36,802 bases of DNA, taken from the IMG/VR virus record IMGVR_UViG_3300022833_000027, positions 1 through 36,802 of that record; one strand, written 5' to 3'. Position numbers and translations under genes: made by a program. This DNA is from a virus. Of the stretch, positions 1 to 36,802 are shown one piece after another; within the stretch, counting starts at the first letter, position 1, and each line of letters starts with the position of its first letter. The notes below the pieces were generated by a model. That model saw only the letters and a program-made list of their open reading frames with translations. It was not told the DNA's origin and ran no database searches.

Positions 1-575
1 TCGGTCGGCTCTTTGGCCCATCGCTCATAGACGAACCGAAAACCCTCTGGCGTCGTATAAGCCGACACGCGATTAAACGGGCGCTTGATGCCTTCGGGCT
101 TTTGCCGGTTCCGCGCGATGATCTGGTTCCAAGCCTTTCGCGCTTGCTCCGTCTTGAGCGTATCTAGCTCGTCAACGTGCGCGCGATAGGTTTCGTACCC
201 AACAATTCTTTCGGGATTGTCCATTGTGCGCAGGACAAAGTCCCCAAACCGTGGCCAACTGGTGTAGATGATGTTTTCGGATTTGTTCCATTTGTGCGGC
301 ACCCCGATGCGTTCAAGCCTGGCGCAAATACGTGGCGCGGTGATCAGGCGAACAAGGTCGTAGGTGGGCGCATACATGCCAATCAACGCCGTTGCGCTGT
401 GTGCCGCGTCCCCGATTGCTGACCAGACCATAACCTCAGACTTGCCAGCGCCAAAGCCCGCAACAAACGCAGGGTGCTTCGCTTCCGACAACAGAAACCG
501 TTCTTGCGGTTCAGTCAGGCTCAGTTGGATCAGGTTTCGCGCGGTCAATTTGCCACCCATCAAAATGATGCACAT
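1..575 (-). CDS. terL: Terminase large subunit, left copy, cut by window start
   Basis: This is the N-terminal 191 codons of a phage DNA-packaging ATPase/nuclease; the rest lies beyond base 1. It translates a Walker A (GFGAGKS) around residue 40 and a Walker B (VDELD) around residue 134, both also in the full copy at 34096-35382. Differences from that copy are nearly all silent. The start used is the ATG at 575; an ATG five codons later (560) is equally possible. It overlaps the end of terS in another frame, the usual terS-terL arrangement. Confidence 0.9.
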   Translation of the reverse strand, partial: MCIILMGGKLTARNLIQLSLTEPQERFLLSEAKHPAFVAGFGAGKSEVMVWSAIGDAAHSATALIGMYAPTYDLVRLITAPRICARLERIGVPHKWNKSENIIYTSWPRFGDFVLRTMDNPERIVGYETYRAHVDELDTLKTEQARKAWNQIIARNRQKPEGIKRPFNRVSAYTTPEGFRFVYERWAKEPT

Positions 576-900
576 CAACTGCGCCTGTGCTTTCGACCAC
601 ATCCTTCTGGCCAAGGTGCTGCTTGCCAAGCCAAATAAGGATCGACGGCACGCCCTTTTCAGCGGCCTTCCACTGATTTCTGCGCAGCGATGCCTTGCCG
701 TGGCTCATATTCTTTTTAATAAGGTCGGAGAAAGAAGTGCCGTTGTGCTTTTTAAGCGCAAAGTTCAGCGTTTTGTCGGTCACCTCAAAGATGTCGCAGA
801 TTTCGTCCTGCGTGCATTGAATCCGCGCCATGCCTTCAATGGTCTTAAACTGTTCGTCGCTCAAAGTGAAAGGCGGTCGGCCTGTAGGTTTTTTGGTCAT
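511..900 (-). CDS. terS: Terminase small subunit-like protein, left copy
   Basis: A 129-residue protein directly upstream of and overlapping terL. The middle (about residues 18-50) reads as a helix-turn-helix, with DEICDIFEVTDKTL as the likely recognition part. That fits the DNA-recognition role of small terminase subunits, which choose the packaging start and load DNA onto TerL. The assignment rests on size, HTH and position. It differs from the right copy at about six residues of 129. Its ATG is preceded by a GGCGGGAAGCC hairpin element that also supplies the Shine-Dalgarno-like purines. Confidence 0.8.
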   Translation of the reverse strand: MTKKPTGRPPFTLSDEQFKTIEGMARIQCTQDEICDIFEVTDKTLNFALKKHNGTSFSDLIKKNMSHGKASLRRNQWKAAEKGVPSILIWLGKQHLGQKDVVESTGAVDVHHFDGWQIDRAKPDPTEPD

Positions 901-901
901 C

Positions 902-934
902 GGCTTCCCGCCCTTTCGTTAGGGCGTCCCGCCC
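902..934 (-). repeat. Two hairpin repeats (GGCGGGANGCC) between mom and terS
   Basis: Elements at 902-912 and 922-934 (plus-strand gggcgtcccgccc is a perfect 5-bp stem with a 3-base loop). The first lies just ahead of the terS ATG; the second covers the last codons and stop of mom. Further copies are at 2146-2156, 2171-2181, 2431-2441, 35710-35720 and 35730-35742. Confidence 0.7.
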
Positions 935-1617
935 GTTGTAGAATTTGGAGCGTGTGGATCGGTGCTGCCCCGTCGCCCTGCTGACTGGTCGTCAGTGGTC
1001 GCCTGCTTCACACGCTTAGGGTATGGCTTAGATAGTGGCGCAATCTGCGCCCGCATGGCGTCGTCTAGTGGCATTAGGTAGCGGTGTTTTCCCGGGACTT
1101 CAACAACGGTTGCGTTAATGTCAATTTTCCGCGCGCCATGAATGTTTTGCACCAATCCTTTTGCGCCTATTGATCTTGGATGTGTCAATTTTCCCAAAAT
1201 CATATAAAACTTTGCAGCGCTGCCTTGCCCATTGTAAACCCAATTGCCAGCTTGATAGATGCCGCCATGATGCCCTTGTGATTGATCGGCAAACGATACG
1301 ATCATCCGCAGATTAGAATTTGCCTTATGCAAAAAATTCATTGCCAATGATGCGATTCGCGAAACCGCATTTTCATGCTTGGTCAATGCGATTCGAACCA
1401 ATTCGACACATTCATCTTGACCCAAGCTATACGGCATTCCAAGATTTGGCGTTGCACCGCGACCAAATATCACAACGCCAATAAATTTACCTTTTTCCCA
1501 TGCGCCGACTTTGACCAATTTCCCCACAGGCAAGCATTTGCTATAATGCCAGTTGACGCAGGCATACTTCGCCGCCGCATGTGTCGCCCAGTCTATGCGC
1601 AAATCAGCCTTGCCCAT
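919..1617 (-). CDS. Mom-family DNA modification protein, left copy
   Basis: A 232-residue protein resembling the phage Mu Mom family (GNAT-like fold), which modifies adenine in phage DNA so that host restriction enzymes cannot cut it. Visible family-like elements are WHYS (23-26), a GAWEKGKFIGVVIFG strand region (38-52), and a SFADQSQGHHGGIYQAGNW block (108-126) with Asp111 and Tyr121 ten residues apart. It starts inside the end of the ParB-fold gene and ends with GGTP encoded by a hairpin repeat. The outer parts match the right copy almost exactly while the core differs strongly. Family assignment is from memory of motifs; activity is inferred. Confidence 0.7.
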   Translation of the reverse strand: MGKADLRIDWATHAAAKYACVNWHYSKCLPVGKLVKVGAWEKGKFIGVVIFGRGATPNLGMPYSLGQDECVELVRIALTKHENAVSRIASLAMNFLHKANSNLRMIVSFADQSQGHHGGIYQAGNWVYNGQGSAAKFYMILGKLTHPRSIGAKGLVQNIHGARKIDINATVVEVPGKHRYLMPLDDAMRAQIAPLSKPYPKRVKQATTDDQSAGRRGSTDPHAPNSTTGGTP

Positions 1618-2143
1618 GTTCTCGCAAATCCCATTCTGCTGCGCAATGCGGGCATGTCACCATTTTCGGCGCAAGTTCGTCTAGCTTGCCTTGATCGTCT
1701 TCAGTGCCGGGCGCAAAATCTGGTTCGTCAAACAAACGAGCCATTTCGTCAACATCAAATCCCGTCAGTGACAGGTCAAAGTCCAACGCGTCCAGTTCGC
1801 CCAACTCAACCTTGAGCATCGCGTCGTCCCAGCCTGCGTTTAGCGCCAGTTTGTTGTCTGCAATCACATAGGCTTTCTTCTGCGCGTCGGTCCAGCCATC
1901 GGCGACCATGCACGGCACGTCTTTGATGCCCAGCTTTTGCGCGGCCAAGATCCGGCCGTGGCCTGCAATCAATCCGCCATCGGCTTCGATCAGAACCGGC
2001 ACTGTCCAGCCCCATTCTTTGATGCTGGCTGCGATCTGCGACACTTGCTCGGCGCTGTGCGTCCGGCTGTTGCGCGCATATGGGATCAAGTCAGCAACCT
2101 TGCGGCGTTCGACTTTATCCGCTGGCCATTTCTGATCTGCCAT
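1604..2143 (-). CDS. ParB-like N-terminal domain protein, left copy
   Basis: A 179-residue protein with the ParB/Srx fold signature: LIPYARNSRTHS (19-30) followed by GGLIAGHGRILAA (56-68). Such domains occur in phage DNA-modification modules, often beside or fused to methyltransferases; here the partner is the Mom-like gene, which overlaps its 3' end by 14 bases. The C-terminus has a CPHC half zinc ribbon (from about 162). A role in DNA recognition, or in helping the Mom-like protein, is inference. It is not a plasmid partition gene: there is no ParA. A hairpin repeat sits a few bases before its ATG. Confidence 0.85.
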   Translation of the reverse strand: MADQKWPADKVERRKVADLIPYARNSRTHSAEQVSQIAASIKEWGWTVPVLIEADGGLIAGHGRILAAQKLGIKDVPCMVADGWTDAQKKAYVIADNKLALNAGWDDAMLKVELGELDALDFDLSLTGFDVDEMARLFDEPDFAPGTEDDQGKLDELAPKMVTCPHCAAEWDLREHGQG

Positions 2144-2944: not shown

Positions 2945-3366
2945 GTCGTTGCCGTGGCGCGGTATGCGGAAATTGCCCAATAAAGATTCTTCACTTCTAC
3001 ATCGCAGGCATTGTAAAAGTTTTCGTCAGTCAGATCGTCCGCCACCTCGGCCATCGCATCCGCCGCCTGCACTCGCTTGCGCAGCCGTTTAATCTCGGCC
3101 TGCGCGGCTTCTAGGGCGTCGGCGGCGTTGTGCATGTCGATTAGAACCCTCCCCGTCGTGTAGCCGGGTGAAGTCCTTGGGTGGGGCGCAATCGACGGCT
3201 CGTCACCCCATGAGGCAAGGTATTTATCATAGGCGACACGAGCGATGTTCTGCGCGTCTGGCTGGGCGGCATCCGGCATGTCCCGTTCGTGCTCCATTGG
3301 GCTGCGGCGGCTGTTTGGTATGTCAGTCATGCGCTTGTCTCCTATGTTTCGTTCGGCAGCGGTCAT
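2941..3366 (-). CDS. Hypothetical protein with shared N-terminal module (A)
   Basis: A 141-residue protein starting MTAAERNIGDKR and continuing MTDIPNSRRSPMEHERDM. The second methionine (ATG at 3330) has a good AGGAGA ribosome site, so two starts may be used. The C-terminal part contains a probable coiled coil (residues about 85-110, ALEAAQAEIKRLRKRVQAAD) and ends AISAYRATATT, a tail form common in small phage proteins near Lar-type genes. The first 35 residues nearly equal those of the next gene, but the rest does not. Function unknown. Confidence 0.65.
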   Translation of the reverse strand: MTAAERNIGDKRMTDIPNSRRSPMEHERDMPDAAQPDAQNIARVAYDKYLASWGDEPSIAPHPRTSPGYTTGRVLIDMHNAADALEAAQAEIKRLRKRVQAADAMAEVADDLTDENFYNACDVEVKNLYWAISAYRATATT

Positions 3367-3761
3367 TCGATTGCATCCTGCGCAAGGGCGGCGCGGGCTG
3401 GCTGTGTCGTGAAGCTGTCTGGGGTGTAGTCCCCATCGCAAACAGCATCCATCAAGACCATCAGTTCCGCCAACGCCTCCCGCAGCTTGGAACTCTCGGA
3501 CAGTGCGGCGTCGTAAAGATCGGCGCGGACGTATTCGGTGCCTGTCTCATCATGGCCGCAGTAGCTGTCAGGGTGCGAAACCTCTATTTCGTCAATCCAA
3601 CTTGGTTCATTGTTCACGGTTTCTATCGGCATCGCCCAAATCCGTTCCGGCGCGTCTGTCTGTGCATCCGGCATGTCCCGCTCATGTTCCATAGGACTGC
3701 GGCGGCTGTTTGGAATGTCAGTCATTGGCTTGTCTCCTGTGTTTCGCTCGGCGGCGGTCAT
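3363..3761 (-). CDS. Hypothetical protein with shared N-terminal module (B)
   Basis: A 132-residue protein starting MTAAERNTGDKP, then MTDIPNSRRSPMEHERDM as in the neighbouring gene. The start at 3761 has a near-perfect Shine-Dalgarno (AAGGAGG) and overlaps the previous stop as ATGA. An internal ATG at the MTDIPN point also has AGGAGA in front. The body carries PERIWAMPIETV and EYVRADLYDAAL, features of a widespread but uncharacterised phage protein type, followed by a helical region. Acidic overall. Function unknown. Confidence 0.65.
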   Translation of the reverse strand: MTAAERNTGDKPMTDIPNSRRSPMEHERDMPDAQTDAPERIWAMPIETVNNEPSWIDEIEVSHPDSYCGHDETGTEYVRADLYDAALSESSKLREALAELMVLMDAVCDGDYTPDSFTTQPARAALAQDAIE

Positions 3762-4055: not shown

Positions 4056-4646
4056 TTAATCTGCGCCCTCTACGTCAAACGCGTCGAACACGACCGGCAT
4101 TCCCCGATCCGTCCTTGCCGCAACCCGGTTAGCATCAACCATCCGATCGAACGTAACCAGCATATCCTTGAGCGGCCCGCTAATCGCCCGCAGGCGCTGC
4201 CCCTCGTTGTATTGCGTGACTTCATCGCGGCTAGCGCTGTTGATGCGCTGAGCGGCCCTATATGCGCTGTCAGCGTCATCCATGAACCCTTGCAGGCCAA
4301 GAATGCCACCGCCGCCGATCAAATCGCGCTTAGACACGGCCATAATCGTGCTGGACAGGTGCTCAATCTGCGTGGCCGCAAAATAGTTGTGATCGTCTAG
4401 GTCCATTACGATGTAATTCGGCAGGGCTGGCACGTCAAACGCGGTCCAATCCCGATCGCCCGAAAGTCGCTTGAACTCCATCCGCTTGCCGCACCACGCG
4501 GTTATGCCCATCTGGCGCAGCTCCTCAACAACCCACAACTGCTTGCGGATCCAGTTTACCCCCACAGGCTTGCCTTCTTCCTTTGCGACGGGGGCGTGCG
4601 TGTCGCGGCATTGCCCGCCTGAAACGTATCCTAGATATTTCGTCAT
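4056..4646 (-). CDS. Phage NusG-like transcription elongation/antitermination protein
   Basis: A 196-residue protein with a NusG-type layout. The N-terminal domain (about 31-105) has QLWVVEELRQMGITAWCGKR, a VPALPNYIVMDL strand (72-83) and a region ending TIMAV. A KOW-like motif follows at about 148-165 (NEGQRLRAISGPLKDMLVTF). NusG proteins bind the RNA polymerase clamp and alter pausing and termination. The ATG at 4646 has AAGAAAGG in front and overlaps the upstream stop as ATGA; a longer frame to 4760 is not needed. It is the last early gene, just before a promoter and the late region, the place where a late antiterminator would be expected. That role is inference. Confidence 0.75.
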   Translation of the reverse strand: MTKYLGYVSGGQCRDTHAPVAKEEGKPVGVNWIRKQLWVVEELRQMGITAWCGKRMEFKRLSGDRDWTAFDVPALPNYIVMDLDDHNYFAATQIEHLSSTIMAVSKRDLIGGGGILGLQGFMDDADSAYRAAQRINSASRDEVTQYNEGQRLRAISGPLKDMLVTFDRMVDANRVAARTDRGMPVVFDAFDVEGAD

Positions 4647-5667: not shown

Positions 5668-6056
5668 TGCTGCCCCCCTGTCATATAGGCGACCATGCGC
5701 CGTGTTGCTTCAATGTGGCCGTGATCCGGCCCGTATGCTGCTCGCCATGCTTTAGGTTCTCGATGGATCGCAATCTTGCTGGTGTCAAAGTTGCCCTGGT
5801 GGCAGCCATCGCAGAGTGGAATGCAATCCGAGTCTGGCGTTTTTCGGGTGCCACCACGATCCATGATGCAGTGGTGCGCCGTGGTCGTGGATAGCTGCGT
5901 TAGCCCGTAGGTATCGCAGATGACGCATGGCAACGAACGGACTTGGCCCATGTATGCTAGATCCGCCTGCCCATGCGCGCTTGCCCGCTTTGCCGTGCGC
6001 TTTGCAGACACCTGGCGCATTGCCTTTGGCTTGCTTGTAAAGCCGGTGCGTTTCAT
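5664..6056 (-). CDS. HNH-type nuclease, Ref/DUF968-like
   Basis: A 130-residue protein with a basic N-terminal tail, then PCVICDTYG (about 43-51), AHHCIMDRGGTRKTPDSDCI, PLCDGCHQGNF and a closing YGPDHG region. The paired CxxC/CxxC cysteines and the His-rich middle are the HNH/Ref pattern found in phage recombination regions beside NinB. The P1 Ref protein is a RecA-dependent nuclease; a similar recombination role is inferred. Start at 6056 has GGAAGG in front and an ATGA overlap with ninB. The open frame extends ten codons further upstream, without support. Confidence 0.75.
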   Translation of the reverse strand: MKRTGFTSKPKAMRQVSAKRTAKRASAHGQADLAYMGQVRSLPCVICDTYGLTQLSTTTAHHCIMDRGGTRKTPDSDCIPLCDGCHQGNFDTSKIAIHREPKAWRAAYGPDHGHIEATRRMVAYMTGGQQ

Positions 6057-6451
6057 CGCGCCTTCCTTTCCTTTTGCTCTGACCATGCAATGCCGTGACG
6101 GTCGCCGTATTCTTGGATGACCGTTATCAGATCGGCCATATGCTTGACCGATAGCTTGCTTGATTTAAACCCGACAGGAAAAGGCCCGCTGCCGTCTAAA
6201 CCTTCTGCAAATTGGCACTGGTGGCCCAGCGATTGCATGAATGCACATTTCCAAGTTTCAGGAACCCACTTGCGGCCTTCTGGCTTGGCCCTAGACACGT
6301 CAGACAACAAAACCCACATAAGCGCGTTTTGGTCTGCGTTGCGCGTTTCCGCCTTGATTGTTATAATTGCCCTATCCGGTGCCTTGGCGATCATTTCGCA
6401 TGCTAGGCGGCGCTGGGCGTCACCAATAAGTCGGATTGTATGGCCGCTCAT
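6053..6451 (-). CDS. ninB: NinB recombination protein
   Basis: A 132-residue protein of the NinB (lambda Orf) family. Recognisable are TRNADQNALMWVLLSDVSR (37-55), the GRKWVPETWKCAFMQSLG block, FPVGFKSSKLSVKHMADLI and VIQEYGDRHGI near the end. Lambda Orf/NinB binds single-stranded DNA and SSB and helps load recombination proteins in place of RecFOR. It fits with SSB and the ERF annealing protein in the same operon. Length is normal for the family. Start is linked to the previous small gene by an ATGA overlap. Confidence 0.92.
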   Translation of the reverse strand: MSGHTIRLIGDAQRRLACEMIAKAPDRAIITIKAETRNADQNALMWVLLSDVSRAKPEGRKWVPETWKCAFMQSLGHQCQFAEGLDGSGPFPVGFKSSKLSVKHMADLITVIQEYGDRHGIAWSEQKERKAR

Positions 6452-7972: not shown

Positions 7973-8593
7973 TCATTCTGCGCGATCGCTTTGGAATTTC
8001 AATTTTGCATCGTCTTTGGCGTCGATCACGGGTTGAACGTGCTGCAATTCTTTCGGGATATTCTTCCATATTCTAATTAAATCATCCATGTCATCTGCGC
8101 CAAACAGCATATCCTTTGCTTCTGATACGGCTTGATCAGATGGGCCTTTAGGTGCTTGCTGCGCCTTCGGTAGTGCCTTGGCCGCGTCGTTGCCGTCGTC
8201 ATCCTCTGGCGCAATGCCTGACATGCTCATAAGCCCATATCGGCGCGCGTATGTAACTGCCGAGCCATAACCCTGCATGTCGTTTTTCTGCACGATCAGC
8301 GGAACTCTGCATTTCAGGACTTCGCCGCTAGGGCCGTGAATTAGCATGGTCTCAACGTATCGGCCCGTTTCATCTTCGCCCGTTGGCTGAATGACAGCAA
8401 TGCCAGACTCGTTTAGCGCGGGCAAGCATGCCTCAGTAACGCTGGCGAGGTCTGCATATTTGCTTTTGAAATGCGGGTTGTTTGCAGACTTTAAAGCCTT
8501 GCCCATCTTTGCCTGCGCAGATGCTAGGGCTGTGGCGATGTTGCCAAACACTTGCGCCTTTGCTTTGTTTTCTGTTATGCTGTTGTCAGTCAT
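7973..8593 (-). CDS. erf: ERF-family single-strand annealing protein
   Basis: A 206-residue protein. The N-terminal part matches the ERF family: FGNIATALASAQAKMG, ALKSANNPHFKSKYADLASV and the GYGSAVTYARRYGLMSM motif, followed by an acidic linker EDDDGNDA. ERF proteins anneal complementary single strands during phage recombination and genome circularisation. The start at 8593 has GGGAGA in front; an in-frame start seven codons earlier is weaker. SSB is the next gene upstream, its usual partner. The C-terminal third is variable and may bind other proteins. Confidence 0.92.
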   Translation of the reverse strand: MTDNSITENKAKAQVFGNIATALASAQAKMGKALKSANNPHFKSKYADLASVTEACLPALNESGIAVIQPTGEDETGRYVETMLIHGPSGEVLKCRVPLIVQKNDMQGYGSAVTYARRYGLMSMSGIAPEDDDGNDAAKALPKAQQAPKGPSDQAVSEAKDMLFGADDMDDLIRIWKNIPKELQHVQPVIDAKDDAKLKFQSDRAE

Positions 8594-8619
8594 TGCGGTT
8601 CTCCCACCGTTCATGATTA

Positions 8620-8693: not shown

Positions 8694-9101
8694 TTAAAAT
8701 GGCAAATCGTCGAGGTCCGCGCTATCTTGGCGTGTGCTGCTGTTGCCACTAGACGATTGCCCGCCGCCATTGCCTTGATCGTACCCGCCGCCAGACCCGC
8801 CGCCGTTGTCAGGCTTGCCGCCCATCAAGGTTACGTCCTGAACGTTCAGTTCAAGATAAGTCTTGCCGTCGTGTTCCCGGGTCTGCAATTCGCCAGAAAC
8901 GCAAACCTTGCTGCCCTTTGTCAGGTATTGCGCCAGGGTCTCGCCGCGCTTGCCCCACATCGAACATCCGATCCACTGCGTCTTTTTTCCATCCTTGCCG
9001 CGCTGTTCAACTGCGACGTTAAAACCGGTCACGGTTGTCTGCCCTGCGTTGCGCACCACGGCGTCTGCGCCGATGTTGCCTGCGATTACTGCGTTAAGCA
9101 T
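8694..9101 (-). CDS. ssb: Single-stranded DNA-binding protein
   Basis: A 135-residue SSB. The OB-fold covers about residues 1-92 (LNAVIAGNIGADAVVR, FNVAVEQRGKDGKKTQWIGC, YLTKGSKVCVSGELQTR, KTYLELNVQDVTLMGG). A Gly/Ser/Asn-rich linker and the acidic tip DLDDLPF follow; the tip is the docking site for replication and repair proteins. The GCAGGAGGAAAT ribosome site is the strongest in the window and is built into the last codons of the preceding gene. The protein coats single strands during replication and ERF/NinB recombination. Confidence 0.97.
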   Translation of the reverse strand: MLNAVIAGNIGADAVVRNAGQTTVTGFNVAVEQRGKDGKKTQWIGCSMWGKRGETLAQYLTKGSKVCVSGELQTREHDGKTYLELNVQDVTLMGGKPDNGGGSGGGYDQGNGGGQSSSGNSSTRQDSADLDDLPF

Positions 9102-25348: not shown

Positions 25349-25780
25349 TTATTGCGCAGACTTGCGGTCGGCTGGCGGTATAGAAAACGGGCTTGTGCCT
25401 TCGTTCATGCCAGAGACAAACGCCTCTGACATTTTGCGCAAGAGCTTGGCTTCCCAAGGCTCAATGTCTGCCATTGTTAGCGATGCGTAGGCGGCAAGGT
25501 CTACCCAATCAAGCGCCAGAAAACCGCCCATCGCCGCAGACTTTATTGCGCCCGCTTCCATTAAGACATTAAGCAGATATTCGCCCGCGTCCAGCTTCAC
25601 AAAGGGCGCGGGCGTCTTGCTTAGATTGTGACGCATCAACCGGCTTTCCCTTGGCCGCTCTGTCTTGTCGCCTTTTATCTCGATGATGGCGTTTAACCAC
25701 CCCATTTGATGCGCGGCAAGGGTTAGCCGCTTTTGTCGTTTCCCAAGCGGTTCGCCTGCTTGGAAGCGTATTCGCTGCAC
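25349..25780 (-). CDS. Tail assembly chaperone extension (gpT-like, made by -1 frameshift)
   Basis: Open frame in the -1 register relative to the upstream tail chaperone, overlapping it by 58 bases. It lacks its own ribosome site. Fusion at the GGGAAAC heptamer gives a protein of about 294 residues running to 25349, the lambda gpG/gpGT arrangement. Content is helical (QMGWLNAIIEIKG, KLDAGEYLLNVLMEAGAIKS, WEAKLLRKMSEAF). It should load the tape measure protein for tail tube assembly. The T part is probably translated only as a fusion. Confidence 0.85.
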   Translation of the reverse strand: MQRIRFQAGEPLGKRQKRLTLAAHQMGWLNAIIEIKGDKTERPRESRLMRHNLSKTPAPFVKLDAGEYLLNVLMEAGAIKSAAMGGFLALDWVDLAAYASLTMADIEPWEAKLLRKMSEAFVSGMNEGTSPFSIPPADRKSAQ

Positions 25781-26232
25781 TGCTTGGCAAACGGGTTGTT
25801 CAGCATGGCATAAACTGGATCGCCGTCTTTGTTTAAGACAGCCTCGCCGTCCTCGTCCTCTTTGACGCCCATTTCGGGAAACGTCAGATTGAGAAACCAG
25901 ATCGCGTCATCTGCGGTCGCGGGCTTGTCGCCGTTGTTGACGTTTTCAAAACCAATAATGAACGGCGCAGCAGCTTCGCAAAGTTGATTGTGAACGTCCT
26001 CCATCACGCGCGCATCGTCGCCCTCGTCTTTGCCTTTGGCCTTTTTGGACATCATCGCAGCCTTTTGCGCCGCCCGCATTTTGGCTTGCATAGAAGCGGA
26101 CGCGGTGCCGCGCAGGATAACCCGGCAGGGCTTGTCGCCGTCCATCATCGGCTCGCCCGTCCAAGCGTCAAGAATCTGCATCGGTGATCCGGCTTCAGCT
26201 TTTGCGCGGCTGTCAAATTTATTGAAATCCAT
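25723..26232 (-). CDS. Tail assembly chaperone (gpG-like)
   Basis: A 169-residue protein starting MDFNKFDSRAKAEAGSPMQIL. GEPMMDGDKPCRVILRGTAS and a charged helical middle (MSKKAKGKDEGDDARVMEDV) are typical of tail chaperones before the tape measure gene, as is FLNLTFPEMGVKEDED. AAAGGAAA lies ahead of the ATG. Near its end the codons TTG GGA AAC form a -1 slippery site, so part of the ribosomes continue into the extension at 25349-25780. Confidence 0.85.
   Translation of the reverse strand: MDFNKFDSRAKAEAGSPMQILDAWTGEPMMDGDKPCRVILRGTASASMQAKMRAAQKAAMMSKKAKGKDEGDDARVMEDVHNQLCEAAAPFIIGFENVNNGDKPATADDAIWFLNLTFPEMGVKEDEDGEAVLNKDGDPVYAMLNNPFAKQCSEYASKQANRLGNDKSG
25738..25744 (-). promoter_or_regulatory. 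-1 programmed frameshift heptamer GGGAAAC
   Basis: The minus strand reads GGGAAAC with codons (TT)G GGA AAC in the chaperone frame, the X XXY YYZ form, 27 bases before the gene's stop. Shifting back one base gives GGG AAA CGA and joins the extension frame. Lambda uses GGGAAAG at the same place. Confidence 0.88.
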
Positions 26233-26314
26233 GATATTTTCCTTTGGTCCTGGTTCATAGCGAGGGTGACGGGCGAACCAATCCACGCCACCCCCTACCG
26301 CCTAAGCGGATTAG

Positions 26315-26809
26315 TTATGTGGGCTCGACGTCATTAACAGTGAAGTCGTTCTGTTTAAAGTTGATCGTGCCGCCTTCAAAAGACGTGTCATCTTTTGGGT
26401 TAAGCGCAAAGGTGTGAAGATATCCCTGCGCGTAGGAAACCACGTCGCCAGCAACAGGCGCTGGGCCGTCGCCCGTGTCGGTTCCGGAACCGCGCACAAT
26501 CTTGAGCGTGTACAGGCCAGATTGCGAGTTTGCAGCGGTAATTGCGGTTGCAATGCCGGTGTCGGTGCCGTCGCCGTGGAATGTAAACGTCGTATCGTTG
26601 CCGGTGGCCGCGCCCTTAACTCCAGACGTAAAGCCGGTGCCAAGGTCCGAAACGTCGATGTTGGCGTGCGTTACGCCAAACGACGGCAGCATTTGCGTGC
26701 CCTTGAGCTGCACAAAGGTCAGTGCTTCCATGCCTGTTTTGTTGTTGTTCGCTGGAACGCCAGGAACGCCAAAGAGGGTCAGGCCAATTTGATTTGATGT
26801 AGTTGTCAT
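26315..26809 (-). CDS. Major tail tube protein
   Basis: A 164-residue beta-rich protein: MTTTSNQIGLTLFGV, TDTGIATAITAANSQSG, TLKIVRGSGTDTGDG and DDTSFEGGTINFKQNDF. Length, strand pattern and position just upstream of the tail chaperones and downstream of the tail terminator fit the tube-forming protein of siphoviruses. AAAGGA precedes its ATG, and a strong hairpin lies upstream (26834-26865), as expected for a highly expressed gene. Confidence 0.85.
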   Translation of the reverse strand: MTTTSNQIGLTLFGVPGVPANNNKTGMEALTFVQLKGTQMLPSFGVTHANIDVSDLGTGFTSGVKGAATGNDTTFTFHGDGTDTGIATAITAANSQSGLYTLKIVRGSGTDTGDGPAPVAGDVVSYAQGYLHTFALNPKDDTSFEGGTINFKQNDFTVNDVEPT

Positions 26810-26833
26810 GCTTGGAATCCTTTCAAGCGATTA

Positions 26834-26865
26834 GACCCCTCGGCGGGGCTGTTGTCTAAGGGGTC
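26834..26865. repeat. Hairpin upstream of the major tail gene
   Basis: gacccct (26834-26840) pairs with aggggtc (26859-26865), 7 bp with an 18-base loop. There is no T-run on the minus strand. It could act as an mRNA processing or stability element for the tail tube transcript. Confidence 0.5.
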
Positions 26866-26905
26866 GCCGCTTTGCCAACAATGGCACCCGCGCCGGTGGG
26901 TATTT

Positions 26906-27082
26906 CTAAGCGCGGTGCCAGCCGATCTTAAGCCAGGCGTCCACGTCTTTTTCGAGCGGCGTTGCACCGGCTCCGGCCTTGTTGGTCAGGCTTGCGCGAG
27001 ACAGGTCGCGGGGCATTAGTGCCGCCTGCAGTTCTTCCGTCACTGCGTCATCTGTAAGGCTTGGTGTGTATTGCTTTTTCAC
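26906..27082 (-). CDS. Small hypothetical protein between tail terminator and tail tube genes
   Basis: A 58-residue protein beginning at a GTG that overlaps the upstream stop as GTGA, preceded by CGGAG. Sequence starts MKKQYTPSLTDDAVTEELQAA and ends WLKIGWHRA. Helical and mildly basic at the end. The surrounding open frame extends further upstream without a ribosome site. Function unknown; it may be a minor structural protein. Confidence 0.6.
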   Translation of the reverse strand: MKKQYTPSLTDDAVTEELQAALMPRDLSRASLTNKAGAGATPLEKDVDAWLKIGWHRA

Positions 27083-27486
27083 GACAGGCTCCGATACTCT
27101 ATGTAAATGGGTGTTTCCCAACGCTGTTCCTCCTCGCGACCGCTGCGAATTGTGGTGCCAACGATTGTGACTTTTGTACCGTTGGCTTCCAGAATTTGCG
27201 CGCGCTTGAAATAATCAGAAATCGTACCGGCCTGCTTGCGGGTGACAATGTCGTAGACGTCCAGCGGAGCAACCAAGGTAACAATCAAAAAGCCTTGGCG
27301 CGTGTAAACCTGGTCAGACAAGCCCAGCGGGACGTCATCGTTTCGCAAGTGCTGTATGGTCAGGTGTTCGCCTGCGGGCTTGTTCCCGCCCTTGCGCGGC
27401 CATATCGCCGTGTAACCAAGCCCGGCAATCATAACCTCGGCCTGCACGTTTAGCGCCTGCGTGATATTGCTATCAATGTCACTCAT
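27079..27486 (-). CDS. Tail terminator-like protein (DUF4128 type)
   Basis: A 135-residue protein: QALNVQAEVMIAGLGYTAIWP, EHLTIQHLRNDDVPLGLSDQ, FLIVTLVAPLD and ISDYFKRAQIL. The alpha/beta plan and position between the gp10-like connector and the tail tube gene match tail terminator (gpU-like) proteins, which cap the tube and join it to the head. Start overlaps the upstream stop as ATGA. Confidence 0.78.
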   Translation of the reverse strand: MSDIDSNITQALNVQAEVMIAGLGYTAIWPRKGGNKPAGEHLTIQHLRNDDVPLGLSDQVYTRQGFLIVTLVAPLDVYDIVTRKQAGTISDYFKRAQILEANGTKVTIVGTTIRSGREEEQRWETPIYIEYRSLS

Positions 27487-27923
27487 TGTCTGCGAATCTC
27501 CGCGCCAATTCTTTTCACCGTAGATGCAAACTCTTGCACCGTTAGCGTGACCATTCCAGCAGGGGCTTGGCCGCTATATCCCTCTTCCAGCCGCACCGCA
27601 TAGGGCAGGTTGTTAGCAATATAAATGACATCACCAGCCTTTGCCGAGTCTGCCGTGCCCTTGGATTTGGCAACGGTTGCCTCATAAACTGGCCCCTTAC
27701 TGCCCGCCCGCTCCCCGATGGTTTCTGTGCCTTGATAGGCAACAGTTCCAGATGGAACGGAACCAATAGATACCTGCCAATTTGAACGAAAGCGCCCCGT
27801 ATCAACAGGGCTTTTAAAAACAACGCTTTTTAATATTTCCAGAGATACTTTGCGGACAATCTTGTCCATCTTGTTAACCGTCTTGCGCTGAAACTTGTTT
27901 ATGTCGTCCTCAAAGCTACCCAC
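27483..27923 (-). CDS. HK97 gp10-like neck/tail completion protein
   Basis: About 146 residues from a GTG at 27923; an ATG at 27933 is an alternative. VSLEILKSVVFKSPVDTGRFRSNWQVSIGS with the SPVDTGRFRSNW block is typical of gp10-like proteins. NNLPYAVRLEEGYSGQAPAGMV near the end also matches. These join head and tail. The first 50 residues are basic and helical. Confidence 0.82.
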   Translation of the reverse strand: MGSFEDDINKFQRKTVNKMDKIVRKVSLEILKSVVFKSPVDTGRFRSNWQVSIGSVPSGTVAYQGTETIGERAGSKGPVYEATVAKSKGTADSAKAGDVIYIANNLPYAVRLEEGYSGQAPAGMVTLTVQEFASTVKRIGAEIRRQ

Positions 27924-32689: not shown

Positions 32690-34099
32690 TTATGCCTCCA
32701 GTCCTAGGGGTTCGCCCGTCATCATCGGCGACGCCGACGCAATGCGGTCAGCCTCGTCTTGCGGGTTCAGGTCGCTGGCAACCATGCCGCGTCGTGCAAG
32801 CTCGCGCAGGAACGTTTCGCGGCTCATGTTGCCCGACTGCACAGCCTGCAACAGAACCGCCATCTCTTGCGCAGACATCATGCCGGCTGCGAATTCCTTG
32901 TTGACTGTCACGGTCGGCGTTACGTCATCGCGGCCAGCGTATTGCAGCATATAGATCATCGCCTGTTCAAGCGCGTCTTGCAGCGAATCAGCCGTCATAG
33001 CCAGCTGCGACGTTTCCTTTTCAGCATCAAGCGCGGCCCCGGTGGCGCTTTCAGACGACACGCGGGCGACAGTCAGTTGCAGGCCCAGCGTTTCCATCTG
33101 AAATTCAAGGTCTTTAAGATCTTGCCGTCCGGCGTCGATTGCGCGACCCGAATGTTCAACCCACTTTAGGTCAGCCGCCGGGTCGTTGGCCGTGGTCATC
33201 TGGCCAACGCTAATTGTGATCGGCTCGTCGTCTTGGCGGCCCGAACCGAACAGGATCGGCACCCTCGCAAAGTGCAGCACGTTTCGCTGATCAGATTGTG
33301 ACTGCCAATGCGCGATGTTGCAATCCGCCAAGTCGTCAAGCATAGGTTCGCCCGTAAAGAACCCGGTGCGGTTTGCATAAAACGGCACTAGCGTGATGTC
33401 ATCCATGTCGCTCATAGTCGGCTCTGCAAAAAGCACATATTCGCCATCGCCGCCTTCGCGCTTGCGATAAAGCCGGGTCATAACGCCGCCGACTTCCATG
33501 CGGTCCAGCACGCGAACCTGGTCTATTTCGACGCTTTTGAATTCGTCCTTGGGATCTTGCTCAGTAACGGACTCCATCAGCCGCAGTTGCGCCAGCACTG
33601 TGACGTTGCTAACAAGCTCTGTGCGCCAGCCTAGCACGTCCTCAACGCGAATGTGCGACAGGTACGGGCGCAGGCCCATAGACGCCACAGCGGCCCGCGT
33701 TACCTGCTCCGGGCGGGCTGGTGCGTCCACTAGGATATAAGCAATGCCAGAGGACAACCCGTCCTGAAAAACGTCGCGCGCAAACGTGGATAAATCCCGT
33801 CCGGCAAGGTCAATGTTCTTGGCCCATTCTGCAATGTCGTCTGGCGTTTCATCAGCAAGCTCAACCGGCCTGCGAAAGACCCGGCCAGTCATGTCGCGGA
33901 TTGCCTTCTTGTAGCCGTTGAACAGCCACGACATCGCCAAACGCTCGTCGTATGTCTCCTGCGATTCAGCCGTGAACTTTGGCAAATAAGTTGTGCTTTT
34001 GCGGCGCATGCCCTGCGTGCCGCCCATCAAAGCGCGACCACGGGCGGACGCTTCCACCATCTGTGCGACAGCTTTTGATCTTGCAGCGACTGCGGTCAT
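32690..34099 (-). CDS. Portal protein (DUF4055 type)
   Basis: A 469-residue protein with the DUF4055 portal layout: MRRKSTTYLPKFTAESQETY, YDERLAMSWLFNGYKKAIRD, MTGRVFRRPVEL, SSGIAYILVDAP, RPYLSHIRVEDVLGWRTEL, EPMLDDLADCNIAHWQSQSD and PITISVGQMTTAND. It forms the dodecameric DNA gate at one capsid corner and docks terminase. ATG overlaps the terL stop as ATGA. Length is normal. Confidence 0.92.
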   Translation of the reverse strand: MTAVAARSKAVAQMVEASARGRALMGGTQGMRRKSTTYLPKFTAESQETYDERLAMSWLFNGYKKAIRDMTGRVFRRPVELADETPDDIAEWAKNIDLAGRDLSTFARDVFQDGLSSGIAYILVDAPARPEQVTRAAVASMGLRPYLSHIRVEDVLGWRTELVSNVTVLAQLRLMESVTEQDPKDEFKSVEIDQVRVLDRMEVGGVMTRLYRKREGGDGEYVLFAEPTMSDMDDITLVPFYANRTGFFTGEPMLDDLADCNIAHWQSQSDQRNVLHFARVPILFGSGRQDDEPITISVGQMTTANDPAADLKWVEHSGRAIDAGRQDLKDLEFQMETLGLQLTVARVSSESATGAALDAEKETSQLAMTADSLQDALEQAMIYMLQYAGRDDVTPTVTVNKEFAAGMMSAQEMAVLLQAVQSGNMSRETFLRELARRGMVASDLNPQDEADRIASASPMMTGEPLGLEA

Positions 34100-35382
34100 A
34101 AACGTAAACTCCGAGATTCAAATGTGGGCTTCACGACGGGCATTTCATACGCCAGCGGATACCCTGCTGCGTCATTTTGATGGTCGAGTCCCGTCTTCTT
34201 ATCAGGCTCGCCGTTAGCGTCGTATGCCTGCTGCTCAAGGCAACGGGCAGTCTCGGGGCATGTATCGGGATTGACAAACACGCGCTTGTTCTGGAACGCC
34301 ATGTTCACGGCTAGGATCCGGTCCTTAACGCGGGGGTTCGACGGCTTGGCGCGGATTGTAAAACCTGCGCCGCGCAACAGCCCGATGTCAGAGATCGATG
34401 CGCCCTTGCTGCTGGCGTTAGCGCCGCTGGCGTCGGGATAGATCGTAACGTGGTGTCCAGCCCAGCGGTCCTTGATCGTGTCAATCATCGCCGGGGTGTC
34501 TCGCCCGCCCTTGATTTCGTCAACGCAGTGCCAATCGTTCTCGCGCAGGACGTAAGCGCAAGCGGCCATGTTGCCGACGTTAAAGTCCATACCCAGCTTG
34601 ATCGGCTCGCCGGGTTGCAGCGTCTCGCGGCTGCGGTTTACTTCGCGGTCGTATGACGTGTAAACGCTGCCCGATGTTAAGTTTACAAAGCGCCCCTCGA
34701 TGTAGGCGTCAATCAATCCAGCCGGGTAGCTGTTGCGCAAGTTTTCAACATAGTCGGTTGGCAAAGTTGGATTGCTGTATGTCGGGGCTTGGAAATATTC
34801 GTAGCCTTCGGTCGGCTCTTTGGCCCATCGCTCATAGACGAACCGAAAACCCTCTGGCGTCGTATAAGCCGACACGCGATTAAACGGGCGCTTGATGCCT
34901 TCGGGCTTTTGCCGGTTCCGCGCAATGATCTGGTTCCAGGCCTTTCGCGCTTGCTCCGTCTTAAGCGTATCTAGCTCGTCGACGTGCGCGCGATAGGTCT
35001 CGTAACCAACAATCCTTTCGGGATTGTCCATTGTGCGCAGAACAAAGTCCCCGAACCGTGGCCAGCTGGTATAGATGATGTTTTCGGACTTGTTCCACTT
35101 GTGCGGCACCCCGATGCGCTCAAGCCTGGCGCAGATACGCGGCGCGGTAATTAGGCGAACAAGGTCGTAGGTGGGCGCATACATGCCAATTAATGCCGTG
35201 GCGCTGTGTGCCGCGTCACCAATTGCAGACCAGACCATAACCTCAGACTTACCAGCGCCAAAGCCCGCGACAAACGCAGGGTGCTTCGCTTCCGATAACA
35301 GAAACCGTTCTTGCGGTTCAGTCAGGCTCAGATGAATCAGGTTTCGCGCGGTCAATTTGCCACCCATCAAAATGATGCACAT
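34096..35382 (-). CDS. terL: Terminase large subunit, complete right copy
   Basis: A 428-residue packaging motor protein. Walker A is GFGAGKS (40-46), Walker B with catalytic acid VDELD (134-138). The C-terminal RNase H-like nuclease has KLGMDFNVGN and IYPDASGAN as acidic motifs. It pumps DNA through the portal and cuts the concatemer. ATG at 35382 chosen; 35367 is an alternative, and an upstream TTG extends the frame without support. The left-end copy (1-575) is its near-identical counterpart. Confidence 0.95.
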   Translation of the reverse strand: MCIILMGGKLTARNLIHLSLTEPQERFLLSEAKHPAFVAGFGAGKSEVMVWSAIGDAAHSATALIGMYAPTYDLVRLITAPRICARLERIGVPHKWNKSENIIYTSWPRFGDFVLRTMDNPERIVGYETYRAHVDELDTLKTEQARKAWNQIIARNRQKPEGIKRPFNRVSAYTTPEGFRFVYERWAKEPTEGYEYFQAPTYSNPTLPTDYVENLRNSYPAGLIDAYIEGRFVNLTSGSVYTSYDREVNRSRETLQPGEPIKLGMDFNVGNMAACAYVLRENDWHCVDEIKGGRDTPAMIDTIKDRWAGHHVTIYPDASGANASSKGASISDIGLLRGAGFTIRAKPSNPRVKDRILAVNMAFQNKRVFVNPDTCPETARCLEQQAYDANGEPDKKTGLDHQNDAAGYPLAYEMPVVKPTFESRSLRL

Positions 35383-35707
35383 CAACTGCGCCTGTATTTT
35401 CGACCACATCCTTCTGGCCAAGGTGCTGTTTGCCAAGCCAAATAAGGATCGATGGCACGCCCTTTTCAGCGGCCTTCCACTGGTTTCTGCGCAGCGATGC
35501 CTTGCCGTGGCTCATGTTCTTTTTAATAAGGTCGGAGAAAGAATTGCCGTTGTGCTTTTTAAGCGCAATGTTCAACGTCTTATCCGTTACCTCGAAGATG
35601 TCGCAGATTTCGTCCTGCGTGCATTGAATCCGCGCCATGCCCTCGATTGTCTTAAACTGTTCGTCGGTCAGGGTGAAAGGCGGTCGGCCTGTAGGTTTCT
35701 TGGTCAT
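35318..35707 (-). CDS. terS: Terminase small subunit-like protein, right copy
   Basis: A 129-residue protein, counterpart of the gene at 511-900 with about six substitutions (for example Ile for Phe in TDKTLNIALKKHNG). The HTH-like stretch DEICDIFEVTDKTL is unchanged, so the packaging-site specificity should be the same. Overlaps terL by 65 bases. A GGCGGGACGCC hairpin lies directly before its ATG, whereas the left copy has GGCGGGAAGCC. Confidence 0.8.
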   Translation of the reverse strand: MTKKPTGRPPFTLTDEQFKTIEGMARIQCTQDEICDIFEVTDKTLNIALKKHNGNSFSDLIKKNMSHGKASLRRNQWKAAEKGVPSILIWLGKQHLGQKDVVENTGAVDVHHFDGWQIDRAKPDSSEPD

Positions 35708-35709
35708 CA

Positions 35710-35742
35710 GGCGTCCCGCCCTTTCTTTAGGGCTTCCCGCCC
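35710..35742 (-). repeat. Two hairpin repeats between mom and terS, right copy
   Basis: ggcgtcccgcc (35710-35720) and gggcttcccgccc (35730-35742). Compared with the left copy the two sequence variants are swapped between the two positions. Confidence 0.65.
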
Positions 35743-36419
35743 GTTGTGGAATTTGGAGCGTGTGGGTCGGTGCTACCCCGCCGCTGTTCAGGCTGGACGC
35801 CTGTCATCGCTTGCTTCACACGCTTAGGGTAAGGTTTTGATAAAGGTGCAATCTGTTTGCGCATTGCAGCGTCAAGGGGCATTAGGTATTTATGCTTATC
35901 GCCAGCCGGGACTTTTTCAACTCTAGGATCAGAATGTTTTAGATTTGGGAATGATGTTCGCAATGCCTTCGCATGCCATATCTTTCCCCTGAATTTCAAT
36001 GATGGGACACCCTTCATTGATCCCTCATAAAGCCAATTCCCGGCCTGATATACACCACCATGATGGCCTTGTGATTGATCTGCATAGCTAACAACCAGAC
36101 GCAAACCCGGCTGACTATCTGTCAAGAATCTCAAAGCAAGCCTAACAATTCTTGATACTGGCGATTTATGCCCTCGCCTCAATGCGATTCTCGTCAATTC
36201 GACAGCTTCATTTATCGTTATGTTATATGGTGAGCCTATCTGCGGATTTGCCCCATGCCCGAAGACAACAACCCCCATAAATTCGCCGCTTTCCCATGCG
36301 CCCAAAGCTACACGCTTCTGCAAGCTGCTTGGCAAGCATTCCGAATAATGCCAATTCTGACAAGCATACTTTGCAGCCGCATGTGTTGCCCAGTCTATGC
36401 GCAGATCAGCCTTGCCCAT
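35727..36419 (-). CDS. Mom-family DNA modification protein, right copy (different core)
   Basis: A 230-residue protein. It shares the first 20 residues exactly with the left copy and most of the last 35 (KPYPKRVKQA, RGSTDPHAPNSTTGG). The core keeps family motifs but is only about half identical: WHYSECLPSS, GAWESGEFMGVVVFGHGA, ELTRIALRRGHKSPVSRI, and SYADQSQGHHGGVYQAGNW with the same Asp-to-Tyr spacing of ten. Insertions and deletions give a slightly different length. Both copies appear intact, so they are alleles or paralogues of one function rather than gene and pseudogene. Confidence 0.7.
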   Translation of the reverse strand: MGKADLRIDWATHAAAKYACQNWHYSECLPSSLQKRVALGAWESGEFMGVVVFGHGANPQIGSPYNITINEAVELTRIALRRGHKSPVSRIVRLALRFLTDSQPGLRLVVSYADQSQGHHGGVYQAGNWLYEGSMKGVPSLKFRGKIWHAKALRTSFPNLKHSDPRVEKVPAGDKHKYLMPLDAAMRKQIAPLSKPYPKRVKQAMTGVQPEQRRGSTDPHAPNSTTGGKP

Positions 36420-36802
36420 GTTCTCGCAAATCCCATTCTGCTGCGCAATGCGGGCATGTCACTATCTTAGGCGCAAGCTGGTCTAGCCTTCCTTGATCGT
36501 CCTCAGTGCCGGGTGCAAAATCTGGTTCGTCAAACAAACGAGCCATTTCGTCAACATCAAATCCCGTCAGTGACAGGTCAAAGTCCAGCGCCTCCAGTTC
36601 GCCCATCTCAACCTTGAGCATCGCGTCATCCCAGCCCGCATTCAGTGCTAGCTTGTTGTCAGCGATCACATAGGCTTTCTTCTGCGCGTCGGTCCATCCT
36701 TCGGCGACCATGCACGGAACGTCTTTGATGCCCAGCTTTTGCGCGGCCAAGATCCGCCCGTGGCCTGCAATCAATCCGCCATCGGCTTCGATCAATACAG
36801 GG
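36406..36802 (-). CDS. ParB-like protein, right copy, cut by window end
   Basis: The C-terminal 131 codons of the ParB-fold protein, from the VLIEADGG stretch with GGLIAGHGRILAA to the CPHC half-ribbon. The N-terminus lies beyond 36802. About seven conservative changes relative to the left copy (for example AEGW for ADGW, VEMGELEALD for VELGELDALD). It overlaps the mom-like gene by 14 bases as in the left copy. Confidence 0.88.
   Translation of the reverse strand, partial: PVLIEADGGLIAGHGRILAAQKLGIKDVPCMVAEGWTDAQKKAYVIADNKLALNAGWDDAMLKVEMGELEALDFDLSLTGFDVDEMARLFDEPDFAPGTEDDQGRLDQLAPKIVTCPHCAAEWDLREHGQG

Follow-up and report, generated by a model that had tools for sequence, protein, structure and literature searches.

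The DNA analysed here, referred to as the window, comprises the whole of an IMG/VR virus record (36,802 bp). Each of its ends carries terL, terS, mom and parB in that order on the minus strand, and positions 1–1992 align with 34808–36794 at 84% overall identity. The genes at the two ends are as follows.

1–629, minus strand: terL of the left allele, cut by the contig start
511–900, minus strand: terS of the left allele (phrog_309, E 9e-8; dS 0.24)
919–1617, minus strand: mom of the left allele (A, mom1), 232 aa (PF25680, E 3e-46)
1604–2143, minus strand: ParB-like gene of the left allele (phrog_620, E 4e-59; ParB_N, E 4e-5), overlapping the mom start by 14 nt; dS 0.27 versus the right copy
34096–35436, minus strand: terL, complete (Terminase_6C, E 2e-12)
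35318–35707, minus strand: terS of the right allele
35727–36419, minus strand: mom of the right allele (B, mom2), 230 aa (PF25680, E 7e-40)
36406–36802, minus strand: ParB-like gene of the right allele, cut by the contig end

The first 116 bp of the contig repeat 34808–34923 exactly, and the other contig end falls inside parB. Two separate terL copies are found in the window only, as compared with 13 related records that each have a single place for terL, split by an insert in one of them (L143). Because of the 116 identical bp and the single terL place in relatives, the simplest reading is that the contig ends represent two alleles from the population, both belonging to a single site of a circularly permuted ~34.8-kb genome, where the assembler would have walked from one strain's allele round to that of another. 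The initial annotation had placed both mom-like genes correctly but took them for two copies in one genome, which, on the same two observations, they very probably are not. The presence of both genes on one contig is what a true duplication of mom inside one phage genome would produce; since, however, they lie at the two contig ends in the same gene context, we regard duplication as very unlikely. A scan of genome contigs for the host of the virus returned no close relative.

Two terL genes of other records may be mentioned here. In L143 (G009), the terL match at 25464–27629 is split by about 900 bp within a 723-aa frame and is intein-like. In L132 (4010–5257; also L128–L131 and L133), terL is chimeric, with a C-terminal half nearly identical to that of the window, while its N-terminal ATPase half and terS have been exchanged and the site is without a modification gene.

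Both mom products match the Mom family over profile positions 1–202 of 202. The best Foldseek match of mom A is Mu Mom (8bv8, E 7.5e-12, TM 0.65–0.73), with a GNAT-type fold, and the nearest solved folds after it are CoA-dependent GNATs, not FemX-type transferases. For Mu Mom itself, acetyl-CoA plus iron has reportedly been proposed. In the AlphaFold model of mom A, residues 1–203 are ordered, and residues 204–232 have a pLDDT of about 33. S86 aligns with S124 of Mu Mom, the S124A mutant of which is described as inactive, and this serine is nearly invariant in 56 sequences. Thus the window proteins share family, fold, this serine and motifs with Mu Mom; they differ in that Mu Mom comes with the com regulator and has no linked tRNA-Gly, whereas the window Mom stands behind a ParB-like gene and is accompanied by a tRNA-Gly-like RNA. 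Both alleles keep every family-invariant residue, in line with the earlier observation that the two cores share motifs. The two alleles thus give no sign of the proposed difference in modification type or target, although a change of type at this site is indeed seen in other phages, as described below.

Sequence comparison of the alleles reveals an abrupt change at both ends of mom. In 60-bp steps, terL, terS and parB are 85–100% identical between the window ends, and their differences are mainly silent (dN 0.008–0.02, dS 0.22–0.27). The two moms match at 60% of residues overall and have the first 20 residues in common; between them dN amounts to 0.35 and synonymous sites have reached saturation (pS 0.58–0.95 over codons 21–210 and still 0.68 in codons 191–210). 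A two-change-point fit delimits the divergent block at 1561–973, with a mismatch of 0.397 inside versus 0.064 outside and a lnL gain of 151.6, as compared with at most 13.7 in 50 shuffles. The breakpoint intervals, 1575–1558 and 977–964, correspond to mom codons ~15–20 and ~214–218.

973–1561, minus strand: exchanged segment of allele A, with its counterpart in B at about 35781–36363

About 200 of the 232 mom codons have therefore been exchanged, and since the breakpoints lie near both mom ends and the Pfam Mom match spans 5–201, this is almost the whole Mom domain.

The phylogenies of the two neighbouring genes are in conflict. The ParB tree groups both alleles with L191 and L276 (contigs L098 and L101), whereas the Mom tree places the right allele next to L197 (contig L084; support 99/96), in a clade of six members (100/100). 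Under AU tests, joining the two alleles in a single clade is rejected for Mom (lnL difference 202, p 2e-5), and so is a single clade of the mom2 group for ParB (p 1e-4). Over codons 16–160, the mom2 core is 97–98% identical in DNA to that of L084, a phage in which the N-terminal part of parB is 66% identical to the window and terS and terL are unrelated. Recombination at mom is well supported by the dS step, the breakpoints, the tree conflict and this recent match. Divergence of the core in place, by fast evolution without recombination, we consider next to impossible: purifying selection at both ends could mimic conserved ends, for which we found no direct support, but it does not account for a rise in synonymous divergence from 0.2 to saturation within a few codons, for the near-identical core between unrelated flanks, or for the disagreement of the trees. 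The initial annotation had predicted exchange of a core between fixed ends from the identical N-termini and the mainly silent flanking differences; these observations hold, as does the stepped, non-uniform divergence when identity is plotted along the locus, and recombination is upheld, while restriction of the exchange to the core is not.

The ParB C-terminus and the mom start are similar in both alleles and in L084. The overlap of these two genes may have served as the 5′ anchor of the exchange and the mom tail as its 3′ anchor, so that homologous recombination would replace mom from the parB/mom overlap to its own 3′ end. Three genes of the window are plausible candidates for the machinery that recombines such diverged sequences:

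6053–6451, minus strand: NinB/Orf-like recombination mediator (phrog_72, E 3e-21)
7973–8614, minus strand: Erf-family single-strand annealing protein (PF04404, E 5e-25; phrog_2324, E 6e-39)
8694–9101, minus strand: single-strand binding protein, SSB (PF00436, E 4e-17)

Much of the genome is mosaic among the near relatives, and the mom site is therefore one of several exchange sites.

The exchange at this site extends beyond alleles of mom. The closest phages by terL (L099 and L100; 99%) are without mom. Their ParB N-domain is the same but forms a fusion with an N6/N4-type methyltransferase, and the same terS comes next. In more distant relatives, the site holds a C5-methyltransferase, a TAGT glycosyltransferase or an ABC-GNAT system. 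Across 137 distinct ParB N-domains, a set in which Mom is over-represented, as mom had been used to collect some of its members, the occupants are Mom in 85 cases, N-methyltransferase in 44, TAGT glycosyltransferase in five, C5-methyltransferase in two and ABC-GNAT in one. Among 80 loci collected with ParB alone, the distinct and classified ones comprise 36 N-methyltransferases, 22 Moms, three glycosyltransferases, two C5-methyltransferases and one ABC-GNAT, the others being duplicates, cut off or unclassified. Examples of the classes are supported by Pfam. About 30 class changes are needed on the ParB N-domain tree (shuffled mean 44.9), and when Mom and N-methyltransferase are taken singly, starred branches force at least five for each. 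The position between the ParB-like gene and terS is one at which DNA-modification genes replace one another. We also considered that the terS type might covary with the type of modification, and discarded this idea, as near-identical terS genes accompany mom1, mom2 and the methyltransferase fusion.

As in other mosaic phage loci with exchangeable modification genes, a module is replaced between conserved flanks in the company of an Erf-type recombinase; what distinguishes the present case is a single site, marked by a ParB-like domain, with at least five enzyme classes. Phage DNA-modification enzymes that are interchangeable can be catalogued readily by following this domain. In cultured phages (Enterococcus phiEf11, Arthrobacter and Microbacterium phages), a ParB-like gene likewise adjoins Mom, with overlaps of 8–14 nt in phiEf11 and the Microbacterium phages, and these pairs are at most ~52% identical to the window. 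Where such phages have a tRNA-Gly, it is annotated as a mere neighbouring tRNA in some and goes unnoted in others.

Some occupants of the site have unusual companions. In L217 (491–1748), the ParB-fused N6/N4-type methyltransferase is followed by an AdoMet decarboxylase gene (PF02675, E 9e-26) in the same exchange site, and decarboxylated AdoMet could be an aminopropyl donor for DNA modification. The ParB-fused methyltransferase of L219 (3391–5072) is found also in L220, L246 and L270; in L219 and L246 the next gene encodes a pyridoxal-phosphate-type enzyme, with a PALP Pfam match in L219. TAGT-type glycosyltransferases (PF20691) lie directly behind the ParB-like gene in L228 (3301–4200) and L119 (588–1466).

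The last ~29 codons of mom overlap a second feature, an RNA element resembling tRNA-Gly, which is present in both alleles.

946–1016, minus strand: tRNA-Gly-like element A, 71 nt (covariance model R1, 84.7 bits, E 5e-15)
1009–1015 and 950–956, minus strand: acceptor strands of element A, with discriminator U at 949 and CCA at 946–948
986–990, minus strand: anticodon-type loop of element A, with ACC at 987–989
35754–35824, minus strand: tRNA-Gly-like element B (R1, 91.2 bits, E 2e-16; fold z −2.16), with anticodon-type UCC at 35795–35797

The predicted fold consists of an acceptor stem, an anticodon-type hairpin and a T-arm, and RNAalifold returns the same structure. Over 36 distinct sequences, 99.0% of the cells for its 17 pairs are standard, with double-sided changes in 12 of the pairs; covariation is 0.538, as compared with 0.163 after shuffling (reached in 0 of 500 shuffles) and at most 0.071 for slid structures. 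All 53 copies of 69–71 nt have 5′ GCG, the acceptor end CGC, U73 and CCA, and 51 of them form all seven acceptor pairs. The centre of the hairpin loop is ACC, UCC or CCC in 51 copies, and xNCCx occurs in the loop region of all 53. Bacterial glycyl-tRNA synthetase recognizes G1:C72, C2:G71, G3:C70, U73 and the anticodon NCC. The acceptor-end elements of this set are present in 53 of 53 copies, where C70-G71-C72-U73 is partly so by construction, since the 3′ end was located by CGCT, and the 5′ strand, the CCA and the loop are independent of that anchoring.

This element explains the nearly identical C-termini that had been remarked on in the two moms. The similarity is real, but what is conserved is RNA rather than protein, because the CCA end occurs in each of the three mom reading frames (42, 18 and 4 loci); conservation of the tail as a protein feature was dropped for this reason and because the tail is disordered in the AlphaFold model. 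A pac site or an attC site in the mom tail was likewise set aside, given the covarying cloverleaf. A hand-written cloverleaf scan proved too permissive to serve as evidence, 98 of 450 random windows passing its shape criteria.

The window copies and other short copies have no D-arm, and most short copies have a 5-nt loop in place of the 7-nt anticodon loop with U33. ARAGORN and the Rfam tRNA model do not detect the window copies. Longer versions with a D-arm exist in L051, L061, L093, Shade and others, and ARAGORN or Rfam detects the tRNA-Gly of L097, Wyborn and the Microbacterium phages. The elements make up an RNA family missed by standard tRNA finders and Rfam.

The link of this RNA to Mom is strict. 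Of 56 further Mom loci searched with the covariance model, 55 have a single match each, which lies at the 3′ end of mom, and an exact pattern for the 3′ half found 81 sites in 2.9 million viral contigs, 81 of them directly behind Mom. A search of methyltransferase and glycosyltransferase loci together with related ones, 585 kb in total, yielded Mom-linked matches only (the two window copies, the mom of L189 and the divergent Mom of L269), so that the methyltransferase and glycosyltransferase versions of the site are without the element there. A further 298 kb of divergent Mom loci gave 47 matches, nearly all at Mom ends, among them matches in two MAGs, one from Bacillota (L308) and one proteobacterial (L309). 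Canonical or near-canonical forms occur as well: L097 has a tRNA-Gly above the Rfam threshold immediately after mom; the annotation of Salinibacter phage B2_17 shows a tRNA-Gly where mom ends, as do those of Microbacterium phages Bush, Appa and Blett, in which it is on the opposite strand; and Arthrobacter phage Wyborn has an unannotated one at this place (ARAGORN). In Arthrobacter phages Shade and TaeYoung, the mitochondrial mode finds a cloverleaf with UCC at the mom end, and Pseudanabaena phage Pan3 has a weak tRNA-Gly there. The RNA lies outside the mom ORF in L097, L308, L309 and B2_17. No linked tRNA-Gly was found at the distant moms of Mu, SP-049, JD024, S-SSM6a, PM87, phiSHEF2, API480, RaK2, F89 and EauM-23, nor at those of phiEf11 and L037; reading of the mom 3′ ends of phiEf11 and Mu revealed no obvious element.

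Phages often carry tRNAs, and with near-canonical tRNA-Gly at the mom end in some relatives, the element could be an ordinary translation tRNA, or the remnant of one used as an integration site, that lies next to mom by chance. This seems improbable to us, as the RNA is always of the glycine type and always accompanies Mom, whereas versions of the site with a methyltransferase or glycosyltransferase never have it, and as most copies are without the D-arm and the 7-nt anticodon loop while all stems covary. Against an integration site in particular, the window proteins that were scanned included no recognizable integrase.

What could a glycine tRNA do at the end of mom? According to PMC3874153, which cites Swinton 1983, the product of Mu Mom is a glycinamide derivative of deoxyadenosine, and GNAT-fold enzymes that use aminoacyl-tRNA are known, among them FemX and the Gly-tRNA-dependent Orf11 (PMC12945691). 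From the glycinamide adduct of Mu and the tRNA-Gly-like RNA linked to mom, we infer that the donor for Mom is probably glycyl-tRNA and that these phages supply an RNA dedicated to this role. The RNA would be cut out of the mom transcript and charged by the host glycyl-tRNA synthetase, and Mom would take the glycyl group from it for adenine N6. As direct glycyl transfer would yield an isomer of the Mu adduct, a rearrangement would be needed; a Smiles-type rearrangement through a five-membered ring, starting from glycyl on N6, would give adenine-NH-CH2-CO-NH2, the adduct of Mu. Copies without a D-arm and with a 5-nt anticodon loop, which are the majority, would be poor in translation and might thus be reserved for Mom, while moms without a linked RNA would use host glycyl-tRNA.

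The proposed pairing resembles that of FemX/FemA-type enzymes and Orf11 by analogy, in that a GNAT-fold enzyme would go together with a glycine tRNA ill-suited to translation. Staphylococcal non-proteogenic tRNA-Gly serves FemX-type cell-wall enzymes. They differ in that the substrates of FemX/FemA-type enzymes and Orf11 are cell-wall precursors or small molecules and that of Mom is DNA, and in the number of GNAT domains, which is two in the former and one in Mom. Against the donor role stand the CoA-dependent GNATs as nearest folds, the published models of Mu Mom, which invoke an acyl-CoA donor (PMC7824862), and the distant moms without tRNA-Gly.

The main rival to the donor role is that the RNA controls mom expression, through cleavage of the mom 3′ end by RNase P or during maturation, or through glycine sensing. 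It overlaps the mom ORF in most copies, and processing would therefore remove the mom stop codon. However, a cleavage signal has no need of the glycine identity elements and the NCC loop, which are kept exactly, and the RNA lies outside the ORF in the four cases named above and on the opposite strand in the Microbacterium phages. We regard control of expression as unlikely, although less so than an ordinary tRNA.

On balance, we favour by a small margin over even odds (a probability of roughly 0.55) the full reading that Mom enzymes are aminoacyl-tRNA-dependent DNA modifiers, that a glycine tRNA unfit for translation is encoded at the mom end, as a dedicated donor, by phages of several bacterial phyla, and that the enzyme and partly the donor RNA form a cassette which is exchanged for other DNA-modification systems, all of them behind a common ParB-like loading domain. 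In the open-licence literature we found no earlier report linking Mom with glycyl-tRNA, tRNA-Gly, aminoacyl-tRNA or glycinamide. The mechanism behind the Mom adduct has been open since the Mu product was described in 1983, and a glycine tRNA that stays with mom in phages unrelated to one another points to the donor. If true, this would to our knowledge be the first DNA base modification known to depend on aminoacyl-tRNA.

A few further elements and repeats were observed. The Mom of L269 (3630–4391) is 22% identical to mom1 and has its tRNA-Gly-like element at 4290–4366, inside the ORF. L209 (same as L328) has two equal-scoring elements, at 1311–1381 and 2022–2092, exactly 711 bp apart, which possibly reflect a tandem cassette or an assembly effect. 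In the window, a tRNA match of 41.2 bits (Rfam), unreported by ARAGORN, lies just upstream of parB at 2236–2315 on the minus strand, and among the small genes downstream of parB there is a 115-bp direct repeat, 86% identical, at 3252–3366 and 3650–3761.
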